A DNA stretch of 64,000 nucleotides, taken from Gemmatimonadota bacterium (GTDB taxonomy: Bacteria > Gemmatimonadota > Gemmatimonadetes > Gemmatimonadales > Gemmatimonadaceae). Where the stretch lies: the NCBI GenBank assembly GCA_003134685.1, contig PLCA01000003.1:62001-126000 (forward strand). Direction: 5' to 3'. Numbering within the stretch: the first letter of the stretch is position 1; every line of letters starts with the position of its first letter. The notes under the pieces are model-generated. The model saw only the letters and a program-made list of their open reading frames with translations. It searched no databases and had not been told where the DNA came from. Made by a program: the position numbers and the translations under genes. Of the stretch, positions 46,369 to 50,092 are shown piece after piece.

Positions 46369-46456
46369 TAAAGATACTACTAGCCATTGTGCGCGTCCTC
46401 TAATTGTGCGCGTCCTCAGGACCTCTGGCGGAACGGGCCGCGGGCTATAACAAGTA

Positions 46457-46557
46457 GGGTTCGGACGCCTCTCGCGTCCGAACCCCTTCGCTCCGCTTCG
46501 ACTGCAGTCGACGAAGAGTATACAACCCGGCGCTCAGACTTGCGTCAGACTGGGTTC
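46457..46557. repeat. Intergenic structured repeat, copy 1
   Basis: About 100 bp related to the element at 49994-50092. It contains a 12-bp stem (46457-46468 with 46474-46485, loop CTCTC), a 14-bp palindrome (46498-46511) and a GCGTCAGAC block (46542-46550). The last codons and stop of the large CPBP gene fall inside it. It may act as a terminator or REP-like element. Confidence 0.7.
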
Positions 46558-49500
46558 GGTCGCTCCGCGCTTTCGCGCCGTTTGATGCGCGATCACCGCG
46601 ACGAGCGCTGAGGCGACGAGGACCGCGAGCGCGCCCGCGCCGCGTGTCTGCCCCACCGGCCCATAGGCGGCGTTGCGCAGACCGCCCAACCCCTGGAATG
46701 CCAGCGCCGCGACGATCCAGGACCAGCCGGACAGCGAGCCCCAGACAACGAGCGCGGTCGACACTACGGCCAGGCCGACAATGGCCATCGCCACGCCCGC
46801 GGGATCGATGTCGACGTCGCTGACTGGGCCGGACGTCCACGCCAACACACCCACCATCACCGCGACCGCCAGGACAAGGAGCGCTCGCAGGCTCCAGCGC
46901 GGCGTGAGTCCCGCGACGACGAGTAACGGGATGCCGGCCAGCGCAACCATCATCAGCGCATTCGCTGGTATGTCGGCGATGCCCGCAAATAATGGCGACA
47001 CCTCATTGAGCATCGTCATCGGTGGGCGAGGCATGCCGGTTCGGGGGATGAGCGCATCCAGGTGTGTCATCGCGTAGGTGATGCCGCCTAGTCCGAGCCC
47101 AGTGATCAGCATGTCATTGCTAGTCGACCTGGATGGCTCGCCCGGAAACATCGGAATTCCTACGCGTCGTCTCATGGCGCTGAGAGCGAGCCACAGGCCG
47201 AGGATAAACAGTATCAACGGGATCGACAGGATGAACCCGAGCGCGGTAGTTCCGATGAAGTTGCCCCAGGTCTGCGTCGTGTCGTACGAGAAGAGCCGCG
47301 ACGGCAGGGAGTTGAGGCCGCTCAGTGTCGTGAGCAGGACGAGCCCGCCCAGGGAAATGAGAGTGTCCTTTCGACTGAGCGTCCCGTCGTCCAGCACGAT
47401 CGGGCGGCGGCGCTTGACGACGATCGCGCCTGTCACCACCAGTCCCAATAGGAGCAGAATGGTCACGCCCCCGCTCAACATCCGATTTGTCTGTCGCGCA
47501 CGGTCAGCGCGGAGAAATGCTTCCGGCAATTCCACGCCGCGTCGCGCCACGAGGGGCTCGTCCCCGGCGATCTGCACCCACGCATGCGCGGCCGCACCGT
47601 CCGGCAGCTTCACAGCCGTGTCCGTGTAAGTGATCGTGGCGTCGCGTCTCGCGGGGCGTGCTGTCTCCTTGACCTCCGATTCCTTGAGCTTGGATGTGTC
47701 TCTCCCTTCACGCGCGAGAGATGCGAGCGCGATACGGCGAAGGGCCGCGGAATCGGCCGAACCGCGGGGCGCGGAATCCGGAACGAGATGGCGTGTGTCG
47801 AGCGGCCTGCCGTCCGGCCACAGCCTGACGCGCCATTCCTCGGTGCGCTGCGCCGCGCTGCCCTTCGTGTGGACGTAGCGGACCGTCCACCACGTGGGCG
47901 GCTCATATGTGGACGCGAACCGCTGCGCCTCGGGCACCAGCTTGTGTTGGCGCAGAAACCGCGGCCACGCGTCGAGCGTGTCCGCCCCTGTCCCGGTGAG
48001 GCGCGTCCAGCCGGCCGGATTTCCACCGTGCGAGAGCAGCATCGAGTCGGCCGCGACAAGGACACGGTGGCGGTCGGCCGTGAACTGCGGGCCAAGTGTG
48101 GGCTTGGGCGGACGAGCTATAGCGACGATGACGCCGGCAACGGCGGCCGCCACCGCGAGCCGGCGTGCCCGCGCCGCGATTACGCCCGGCTGTCTCGCGG
48201 TGATCGGAGTCCGCGGTTCCTCCACGGCGACACGCGTCCACGCCCCGAACCGGGCGTCCTCCGGAGCCGTTGTGAAGCCACGCTGCCGCGCCCATCGCCA
48301 CAACACCACGAGGGCCGGGGCCAGCAGCACGAGCAGGATGATCGCAGCCGAGACCCGGTATTCGACGGAGCTTCCCGTCGCGGCGAATATCCCGAACAAC
48401 ACGAGATCGTACACGAAATGCGCGATCACGGTGACGATAAGCCCGAAGTTGATGAACAGCACAGCCCAGAAGCAGGCGTCGAGAAAGAGCTCCACGCCAC
48501 GCGAATACGGAGGCCACGATTCGTAGTTCGCGTGCGCGAAGCCGAAGATGAGCGCCGTCGCGACGACTCCCGCCGCCAACCACCACCGGCGCCCGGCACG
48601 TCGCCCAATCCAGAGCGAGAGCAGGGAGAGCGGGAGCGCGCGGAAGAGCGACTCTTCCCACACCCCGGCATTTACCGACGCCGCGATGCCCGATATCCAT
48701 GGCATCGGCGACGCGATCTGGTTTGGATCGTCGAGCAGCTCGCTCGGCACCCACCAACCGAACAACGTTCGCGTCACCAAATAGAAAATCGCGACGTAGG
48801 CGAACCCGATCGCGGCCACGGCGTAGCCGCATCCAACACGGGACGCGACCTCCCTCGTGCCACGGTACCGCCACAGCTTCCACCAATCGAGATGCCGCGG
48901 GAACCCATGCCGGGTGGATGCCTCTGCCGCGGCAAGCGTGAAGCCGACGAGCAGCGCGGTCGAGAGGCCAGCCAACAACGCAAAAAGGAGCTGCGTCGCC
49001 TGGAAGGTGGCGGGCAACATCGCGGTATCGTACGAGAACCAGCTCCCCGGCATCTCGTTGATCCCCGCGGCGAGCGCGAGCGCGCCGATCACCGCGCCCA
49101 CCACCATCGGCTCGCGCCAGCGGACGCTGGTCTCGCGCGCAAATCGGCTGAGGACGACGATGCCGACGATAGCTATTCCGAGAAACCCCAGAGTGGCCAG
49201 CAGCGCGAGCAGCTCATTCCACGACCGCATCTCGGCGTACCGCCGGCGAAACGACTCGGGAATCTCGACAAACGGCCGGACGCGAGCCGGGGTGTCGCCG
49301 GCGATTCCGACTTCCGCGCGGATAGGCGCGCCGCCAATGCGTCGGTCGACACGCTCGAACGTATAAGTGCGGTCGATCCGGCCGCTGGTCTTCTTCGTTT
49401 CGTACGATGCGGTGACAAGCTTCCAGCGGTTCGCGCTACCGTCGATCCAGGTATTCAGCGCAATCTCCGCCAGGCGTTGGCCGGAGTCAGCGCTCACGGT

Positions 49501-49914
49501 CGGCCGACGATCCGCGTCGGAGAGCTTTCGCTCGAACCCGATAATGCGGCCGTCGGGCGCGAATTGGACGCGCGCTTCCCGTGGGTCGCCCGGAACGAAC
49601 GCGCGGACCGACCAGGTAAAGGGCGCGACGTCTTTGCCGCGAACCAGAGCGTTCAGAGAATCGTGACCGCCGCCGGCCAGCTCGACAAACGTGCGGAGCG
49701 AGTCGTTCCCTTCAAAGCGAACCGCGGTTCGCGCCCCTGCGGGCGCGAGGGAGTGAACGCGAAAAAAAGAATCGGCGCGAGCGAGCGCGACGTCTCTGGT
49801 GAGGGACTGCTGGAGCGCGACGATCGGAAGGGCGCGCGGAAAGAGCCACGCCGCGGTGGCCGCCGCGACGACGGCGATCGACACTACCAGGATCGCAACT
49901 CTGGAACGGGTCAG
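46534..49914 (-). CDS. Tandem-duplicated CPBP-family intramembrane protease-like protein
   Basis: About 1126 residues in two homologous halves, offset by about 578 residues. Each half has a soluble domain (AGDTP and PESFRRR near 205-225; AGDEP and PEAFLRA near 783-803), then a membrane domain with FSYD (293-296; 875-878). The first membrane domain holds the CPBP motifs EESLFR (420-425), FGFAH and HFVYD. The second has MVALAG at the equivalent place, so it should be inactive. CTG at 49914 follows AGGAG by 7 nt and gives an N-terminal helix with basic residues; GTG at 49884 is the conventional alternative. Substrate unknown. Confidence 0.85.
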   Translation of the reverse strand: MTRSRVAILVVSIAVVAAATAAWLFPRALPIVALQQSLTRDVALARADSFFRVHSLAPAGARTAVRFEGNDSLRTFVELAGGGHDSLNALVRGKDVAPFTWSVRAFVPGDPREARVQFAPDGRIIGFERKLSDADRRPTVSADSGQRLAEIALNTWIDGSANRWKLVTASYETKKTSGRIDRTYTFERVDRRIGGAPIRAEVGIAGDTPARVRPFVEIPESFRRRYAEMRSWNELLALLATLGFLGIAIVGIVVLSRFARETSVRWREPMVVGAVIGALALAAGINEMPGSWFSYDTAMLPATFQATQLLFALLAGLSTALLVGFTLAAAEASTRHGFPRHLDWWKLWRYRGTREVASRVGCGYAVAAIGFAYVAIFYLVTRTLFGWWVPSELLDDPNQIASPMPWISGIAASVNAGVWEESLFRALPLSLLSLWIGRRAGRRWWLAAGVVATALIFGFAHANYESWPPYSRGVELFLDACFWAVLFINFGLIVTVIAHFVYDLVLFGIFAATGSSVEYRVSAAIILLVLLAPALVVLWRWARQRGFTTAPEDARFGAWTRVAVEEPRTPITARQPGVIAARARRLAVAAAVAGVIVAIARPPKPTLGPQFTADRHRVLVAADSMLLSHGGNPAGWTRLTGTGADTLDAWPRFLRQHKLVPEAQRFASTYEPPTWWTVRYVHTKGSAAQRTEEWRVRLWPDGRPLDTRHLVPDSAPRGSADSAALRRIALASLAREGRDTSKLKESEVKETARPARRDATITYTDTAVKLPDGAAAHAWVQIAGDEPLVARRGVELPEAFLRADRARQTNRMLSGGVTILLLLGLVVTGAIVVKRRRPIVLDDGTLSRKDTLISLGGLVLLTTLSGLNSLPSRLFSYDTTQTWGNFIGTTALGFILSIPLILFILGLWLALSAMRRRVGIPMFPGEPSRSTSNDMLITGLGLGGITYAMTHLDALIPRTGMPRPPMTMLNEVSPLFAGIADIPANALMMVALAGIPLLVVAGLTPRWSLRALLVLAVAVMVGVLAWTSGPVSDVDIDPAGVAMAIVGLAVVSTALVVWGSLSGWSWIVAALAFQGLGGLRNAAYGPVGQTRGAGALAVLVASALVAVIAHQTARKRGATEPSLTQV

Positions 49915-49993
49915 GCTAGGGCTCCTCAGGGGTTAGGGGATGTGGCAGGACACGCCATGAGATGCTAGGCCCGCAACCGACTAAGGCGGAGAA

Positions 49994-50092
49994 GGGTCCG
50001 AACGCCTCTCGCGTCCGGACCCTTTCGCTCCGCTCGACAGCTGTCGGCGAATACTACAATCCCACCGTCAGATGTGCGTCAGACACGCTTCG
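49994..50092. repeat. Intergenic structured repeat, copy 2
   Basis: The second copy of the element at 46457-46557, same orientation. Stem 49994-50005 with 50011-50022 (one A-C mismatch), loop CTCTC, palindrome CGACAGCTGTCG at 50035-50046 and GCGTCAGAC at 50076-50084. Compared with copy 1, one base pair changes in each hairpin on both arms. It directly follows the acyl-CoA dehydrogenase stop. Confidence 0.7.

Follow-up and report, generated by a model that had tools for sequence, protein, structure and literature searches.

We analyzed a 64,000-nucleotide stretch of the genome of a Gemmatimonadota bacterium (assembly GCA_003134685.1, contig PLCA01000003.1, positions 62,001 to 126,000 of the forward strand; hereinafter the window), which carries on its minus strand, at 46534..49914, the gene for a large two-copy membrane protein. 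Each copy consists of an extracytoplasmic domain (ectodomain) predicted to have a PepSY fold, followed by a membrane domain related to the CPBP/Rce1-type proteases, and only the first copy keeps the catalytic motifs of that family. The frame of 1126 residues reported in a first-pass annotation of this DNA was recovered on the minus strand from CTG 49914; the first ATG, GTG or TTG in the frame is GTG 49884, from which the product would have 1116 residues. A start at or adjoining CTG 49914 is probable, since GAGGAG lies upstream of it, ending 7 nucleotides before the CTG, since the relative L024 (95% identical) keeps both GAGGAG and CTG and the relative L027 has an ATG one codon past the corresponding CTG, and since a start at GTG 49884 would halve the first membrane helix. 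In a further relative, L025, the CTG is conserved, accompanied by the weaker GACGAG. The occurrence of the two-copy frame in many genomes rules out an assembly error or local oddity.

The repeat is visible in short motif pairs: IAGDTP and IAGDEP at residues 204 and 782, PESFRRR and PEAFLRA at residues 219 and 797 (a spacing of 578 in both cases), and the FSYDT pair, NEMPGSWFSYDT and NSLPSRLFSYDT, at residues 286 and 868 (spacing 582). When the two halves were compared directly, BLASTP aligned them over 336 columns with an e-value of 8e-13 (composition-adjusted), and the Smith-Waterman score was 208, as against a maximum of 80 and a mean of 47 in 500 locally shuffled controls of one half. Profiles of the halves aligned over 384 columns in hhalign (99.9%, e-value 6e-34). 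The shuffles and the profile comparison rule out a chance repeat; the tandem repeat of about 578 residues that had been read from the motifs thus stands, with its motifs and spacings right and with homology confirmed by both self-alignment and profile comparison.

The membrane domain of copy 1 (residues 226-548; 48271..49239, minus strand, as are all parts of the gene given below) is recognizable as CPBP/Rce1-like from its Pfam match, motifs and loop charges. The Pfam profile PF02517 matches copy 1 only, at residues 404-505 (e-value 4.1e-9, 37 bits against a cut-off of 22.4), and matches 19 of the 19 members of the sequence set A2, the nine reported individually being above the cut-off. Motif search located the catalytic EExxxR motif as EESLFR (residues 420-425; 48640..48657), the FxxxH motif as FGFAH (residues 457-461; 48532..48546) and the HxxxN/D motif as HFVYD (residues 499-503; 48406..48420), and copy 1 looks like an intact glutamic intramembrane protease of the CPBP/Rce1 type. 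As the alignment of the copy 2 core is uncertain, we used an alignment-free motif search to compare the copies, with 27 copy 1 and 25 copy 2 rows that are a chosen subset rather than every genome with a two-copy frame: the three motifs occur in order in 27/27 copy 1 domains and in 11/11 single-copy relatives, and in 0/25 copy 2 domains. The aligned rows give the same partition for residues E420, E421, R425, H461 and H499 (27/27, 11/11 and 0/25, respectively), and the position four residues after H499 is D or N across the 27 copy 1 rows. In the whole-protein alignment, the catalytic residues are present in all 30 of the 31 rows that reach that part.

In the membrane part of copy 2, EExxxR was found nowhere (0/25 sequences); stray FxxxH-like strings occur in 5/25, the copy 2 of the window included, and an HxxxH-like string in 1/25, never as a series. 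A shifted catalytic motif, for which we looked in these 25 membrane parts, was not found and can be ruled out, there being neither an intact series (0/25) nor an EExxxR. Judged by its residues, copy 2 is catalytically dead. The earlier observation that only copy 1 keeps EESLFR, FGFAH and HFVYD holds, with the motifs beginning at residues 420, 457 and 499, and the pairing of a live with a dead copy proves to be conserved (27/27 versus 0/25). The string MVALAG (residue 989), which had been placed at the EE/R positions of copy 2, does align opposite EESLFR; the exact counterpart is uncertain because the last six helices of copy 2 give no significant match on their own.

This last point emerges from profile tests run by region (27 copy 1, 25 copy 2 and 9 single-copy rows, with L023 and L095, two diverged single copies, left out). 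Copy 2 matches the single-copy relatives over its whole length (hhalign e-value 1e-41) and over the soluble domain (7e-28), and its soluble domain matches that of copy 1 (5e-25). Its membrane part as a whole also matches the single copies (e-value 2e-11; score 83, where 30 shuffles reached at most 18), with transmembrane helices 2-4 (TM2-4) carrying much of this signal. The last six helices alone are not significant in hhalign (e-value 0.04 against copy 1 and 0.09 against the single copies), their scores of 19.1 and 16.4 lying just over the maxima of 17.0 and 15.3 seen in 30 shuffles. In 7 of 9 single-copy proteins that were scanned, the copy 2 profile nevertheless aligns collinearly as far as its positions 489-510, and the CPBP descent of the copy 2 core is supported by this collinearity, the helix count and the charge pattern rather than by its own sequence signal.

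The N-terminal membrane helix (residues 1-23; 49846..49914), identified from the sequence and placed at residues 2-24 in a low-confidence model, has a positively charged start and, by its charges, would run from the cytoplasm to the outside. A variable basic linker and the start helix of copy 2 (residues 549-599; 48118..48270; helix 577-600 in the low-confidence model) separate the two copies. Along the nine hydrophobic peaks of the copy 2 membrane domain (residues 807-1126; 46537..47496), which lacks the catalytic motif series, the average loop charges alternate cleanly. Copy 1 shows a broad alternation with seven clear peaks; to arrive at nine helices there, one has to add by eye the glutamate-bearing helix and the double peak at 481-505. 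Both copies would accordingly have a periplasmic ectodomain and an inside end and would lie parallel in the membrane, with about 20 helices in total.

For the ectodomains, we built a model of residues 24-225 of copy 1 (49240..49845) from alignment A4, whose 17 rows come from both copies. The model (predicted local distance difference test [pLDDT] 79.9; predicted template modeling score [pTM] 0.77) has two units, each combining one helix with a sheet of four strands; the first unit carries two additional helices. Among solved structures, VIA-align placed the C-terminal domain of YpeB (5boi) first, with Z 12.4 over 146 residues at 3.7 Å and 13% identity; the next row has Z 7.1, and chains of the vibriolysin MCP-02 appear weakly (Z 3.8 and 3.7). 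Foldseek likewise ranked YpeB first (e-value 5.4e-3, probability 1.00), with no match under 0.001. That part of YpeB consists of PepSY domains according to the available portion of its description (PMC13393411), and we predict that the copy 1 ectodomain is a tandem PepSY α + β fold, YpeB-like. The copy 2 ectodomain (residues 600-806; 47497..48117) is homologous to it and is under strong purifying selection (see below). Four of the 11 single-copy relatives match the YcdB/YcdC repeat profile PF16244, which we take to belong with PepSY; these matches are below the cut-off (best e-value 3.7e-4; one score seen is 20.2 bits against a cut-off of 27), and the window's own genome has no PF16244 match. 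Other searches were barren: the whole protein searched by sequence against solved structures gave 5wuc_A as the best match (e-value 0.59), a viral fold library gave no match with an e-value under 0.001, and NCBIfam gave one meaningless match (e-value 4.3). The earlier suggestion that the ectodomain senses a substrate or inhibitor receives indirect support from the predicted tandem PepSY fold with YpeB as its best match.

We then surveyed related genomes for the protein, in draws that overlap and whose numbers are not additive. Each of the nine relatives identified in named records belongs to Gemmatimonadota, in line with the assignment of the window's genome to the Gemmatimonadaceae. Matches were obtained in 16 of 61 near relatives, the window's own genome included, and in 35 of 179 genomes of the family, two of these (G176 and G034) matching only over a short CPBP stretch. 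At the class level, 95/394 genomes match the copy 1 profile, many through short matches to ordinary CPBP proteins; by our own count, 46/394 have the match within a frame that measures at least 1,118 residues from stop to stop. A single-copy protein is present in 12/394 class genomes (frames of 558-628 residues, and one of 784; one starts at a contig edge), and further class-level matches are cut by contig ends. In the draw from the phylum (limit 1e-20), 59/395 genomes match, and the one outside the class, G464, has a single copy of 563 residues. The profile searches were confined to the phylum, and the scan of all genomes reaches close relatives only; a plasmid search with copy 1 gave no match. 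The first-pass annotation knew of no characterized protein with this layout; the layout is not unique, as it recurs in dozens of Gemmatimonadota genomes that are joined by single-copy PepSY-CPBP proteins.

Within the same genus, the gene is distributed patchily, with matches in 8 of the 19 genomes in the near-relative set. One that lacks the gene, G011 (L106, 3-2236), has the acyl-CoA dehydrogenase gene and etfB adjacent with no CPBP gene between them, on which ground the gene has evidently been gained or lost within the genus. The etfB of this locus reads in two frames.

A careful tree of 65 domain rows unites copy 1 in one group (support 100/99) and copy 2 in another (100/100), both in 100% of 200 bootstrap trees. 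Given these two fully supported groups, the simplest reading is one old duplication-fusion before the sampled families split. Many inner splits match between the two copies, among them the window's family versus the rows of families f2, f5 and f7, and the pairs L017/L040, L037/L038, L035/L039 and L098/L099; in this informal comparison, L097, L096 and L015/L044 are placed differently in the two subtrees. Transfer between families is possible. The single copies fall on one side in a quick tree (90) and do not in the careful tree with two more rows (where the single-copy state needs 2 changes); because of this difference, we neither claim them as one group nor name an ancestral form. L030, probably of a genome coded to family f7 (G372:C222; we infer that the two are the same record from a shared frame length of 1,674), has two copies and falls with f1, the family of the window, which reflects either transfer between families or a misplaced contig. 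A second, strongly diverged type of single-copy PepSY-CPBP-like protein (L023, L095 and L130) occurs in the f1 genomes G035, G033 and G032, alongside the two-copy protein.

The two copies differ in where they are conserved. In the 24 rows that contain both copies, copy 1 has a mean pairwise identity of 0.42 in its ectodomain and 0.49 in its core, and copy 2 one of 0.37 and 0.21, respectively; the ectodomain is the more identical part in 276/276 pairs for copy 2 and in 34/276 for copy 1 (the pairs are not independent). Ratios of non-synonymous to synonymous substitution rates (dN/dS), calculated by the Nei-Gojobori method with our own script for the window against five relatives (four for the copy 1 ectodomain), are 0.07-0.11 in the ectodomain and 0.05-0.16 in the core of copy 1, 0.11-0.19 and 0.19-0.44 in those of copy 2, and 0.21-0.45 in the linker (residues 549-599). 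The exception is the comparison of the window with L024, where TM2-4 of copy 2 gives 0.99 on very few changes (synonymous rate dS 0.021). Ratios well below 1 in nearly all segments, together with the old split, rule out a recent decaying pseudo-copy. From the identity pattern and dN/dS, copy 2 is evidently a selected part of the protein, with selection acting chiefly on its ectodomain. The idea of copy 2 as a pseudoprotease partner therefore survives in altered form: since conservation is lowest in the dead membrane core, the weight shifts to the second ectodomain.

Against the background of the observed duplication, catalytic motif loss, conservation pattern and purifying selection, and of the predicted PepSY fold and topology, the interpretation that we favor, and to which we give about an even chance, is a single-chain PepSY-CPBP protein in which copy 1 is an active protease and copy 2 holds a non-catalytic second ectodomain on a scaffold. 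Copy 1 would be a glutamic intramembrane protease with its catalytic core in the membrane and its tandem-PepSY ectodomain in the periplasm. In copy 2, one old duplication-fusion would have been followed by the loss of catalysis, while a second PepSY ectodomain was retained, carried by a relaxed scaffold of several helices parallel to copy 1. The likely targets of copy 1 would be membrane-anchored envelope proteins; the two ectodomains might jointly bind the extracytoplasmic part of the substrate, or cap access until a ligand or substrate displaces them, with copy 2 acting as a non-catalytic partner.

Several observations weigh against this interpretation. The PepSY assignment comes from the predicted fold and not from sequence profiles: no Pfam PepSY-type profile matches the window protein, and a sequence profile search of solved structures with the ectodomain recovered no PepSY protein. 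The full-length model, made from 10 sequences, has a pLDDT of 40.8, too poor for the packing of the two copies to be obtained from it. The core of copy 2 is so diverged that it might serve only minimally as a membrane scaffold. Most of the relatives searched lack the protein, which is therefore not essential to the group. Furthermore, across 45 loci (some being overlapping pieces of one genome), no neighbor cluster is seen in more than five, in a comparison where the neighbors are crude GC-frame calls, some of them doubtful antisense frames (L096 and L123 had even their CPBP gene left unflagged).

Some of the same evidence can be read differently. PepSY domains have been proposed as inhibitors of peptidases in the same or another chain, as far as the available part of the source goes (PMC2954215), and the ectodomains could be propeptide-like inhibitors of their own chain's protease, removed or moved on activation as is thought for the propeptides of M4 peptidases. 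The vibriolysin MCP-02 chains in the structural list fit this, if weakly; their fold match is far weaker than that to YpeB, and two ectodomains per active site exceed what an inhibitor would need. Moreover, the active site of CPBP proteases is expected inside the membrane, such that a soluble domain could only block access to the site and not fill it; on balance, we regard autoinhibition as unlikely. We are somewhat more skeptical of a role like that of myxosortase, a CPBP protease that cuts the C-terminal membrane tags of exported proteins in the partial text available (PMC11980579). Here, the ectodomains would be receptors for the exported part of C-terminally tagged surface proteins, and an ectodomain on the outside would suit exported substrates; however, no neighbor recurs widely among the compared loci, genome-wide searches for tag or substrate genes not having been made.

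Two further alternatives concern the membrane domains themselves. The last six helices of copy 2 might be an unrelated or replaced membrane segment, with only the ectodomain and TM2-4 duplicated: their own profile matches barely exceed the shuffled maxima, and the Pfam matches of copy 2 are weak and scattered, each in 1 of 15 members. Set against this are the collinear profile in most of the single-copy proteins scanned, the significant match of the membrane part as a whole (though much of it lies in TM2-4), and a helix count and charge alternation compatible with CPBP, which together make replacement improbable in our estimation. It is also conceivable that copy 1 is no longer a protease and that the entire chain serves as a membrane receptor or assembly factor on a CPBP fold, like SpdC or LnsB, given that CPBP folds have apparently been reused without catalysis (PMC7387801, in the part available). 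The invariance of the catalytic positions in 27/27 copy 1 rows, their loss in 25/25 copy 2 rows and the low dN/dS of the copy 1 core (0.05-0.16) make this very improbable. The favored reading, an active copy 1 with a non-catalytic copy 2, also admits a more specific and speculative version, possible but well short of even probability, in which the protein is a built-in live/dead pair on one chain, a one-gene counterpart of the idea, from γ-secretase, that a dead CPBP partner (APH-1) accompanies a working protease, and the two tandem-PepSY ectodomains gate the protease from outside, reading a periplasmic signal and opening the active site.

Parts of this arrangement have parallels in known systems. 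Like the CPBP or type II CAAX proteases (Rce1-like, PF02517), copy 1 carries all three motifs and scores above the Pfam cut-off; unlike them, the protein has about 1,130 residues, where the four other CPBP genes of its own genome have frames of 252-333, and adds a predicted tandem-PepSY ectodomain along with another copy that is dead. YpeB is the best solved match to the predicted ectodomain fold; it is described, in the portion of the source at hand, as a protein of spores that has a signal sequence, PepSY domains and no CPBP fusion and that may keep the spore lytic enzyme SleB inactive (PMC13393411). In the present protein, ectodomain and partner enzyme would share a chain. LnsB, SpdC/LyrA and the APH-1 subunit of γ-secretase have lost the CPBP catalytic residues and are discussed as non-catalytic in the available text (PMC7387801); they are separate proteins, while in the present case the dead and live sister copies form one chain. 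The iRhom pseudoproteases of the rhomboid family are likewise, in the excerpt available, inactive relatives of intramembrane proteases kept for regulation, but they belong to another protease family and are encoded by separate genes in animals. The myxosortase MrtX is a bacterial CPBP protease acting on exported proteins, for which the accessible part of the paper mentions no second copy or PepSY ectodomain (PMC11980579). In the literature searched, we recognized no report of a PepSY-CPBP protein, of a live/dead CPBP fusion or of CAAX-protease work in Gemmatimonadota, the fusions in the survey of Pei et al. (2011) lying outside this comparison; as far as this literature goes, both the PepSY-CPBP combination and the live/dead fusion are new. 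They bear on the control and substrate choice of bacterial CPBP intramembrane proteases: a live and a dead copy kept together across several families amount to a ready-made experiment on the role of the dead half, and PepSY domains, proposed as inhibitors of secreted peptidases, would here be linked to a membrane protease.

The genes around the two-copy gene offer no clue to its function: acyl-CoA dehydrogenase and electron-transfer flavoprotein (ETF) genes adjoin it solely in close relatives from its own genus, in a comparison where many loci extend only about 1.5 kb on each side. A terminator-like hairpin lies downstream of the gene (46456..46486, minus strand), in a scan with 4 such sites versus 2.5 expected in shuffles, and a similar hairpin lies between the acyl-CoA dehydrogenase gene and the CPBP gene (49992..50024, minus strand). 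As the scan did not class this upstream hairpin as terminator-like, it is no more than suggested that the gene forms its own transcription unit; a promoter scan around the gene found none. The window's own genome contains the strict 21-base hairpin pattern once, and in G011 (L106), where the CPBP gene is absent, a stretch related to the flanking hairpins lies between the dehydrogenase and etfB genes. Beside the acyl-CoA dehydrogenase gene, the segment 40927-46339 of the window presumably holds a moeA-like gene, a methyltransferase, an ETF-ubiquinone oxidoreductase, etfA and etfB, an ordinary electron-transfer cluster whose order is kept in L024 and of which parts are present in L026-L028.

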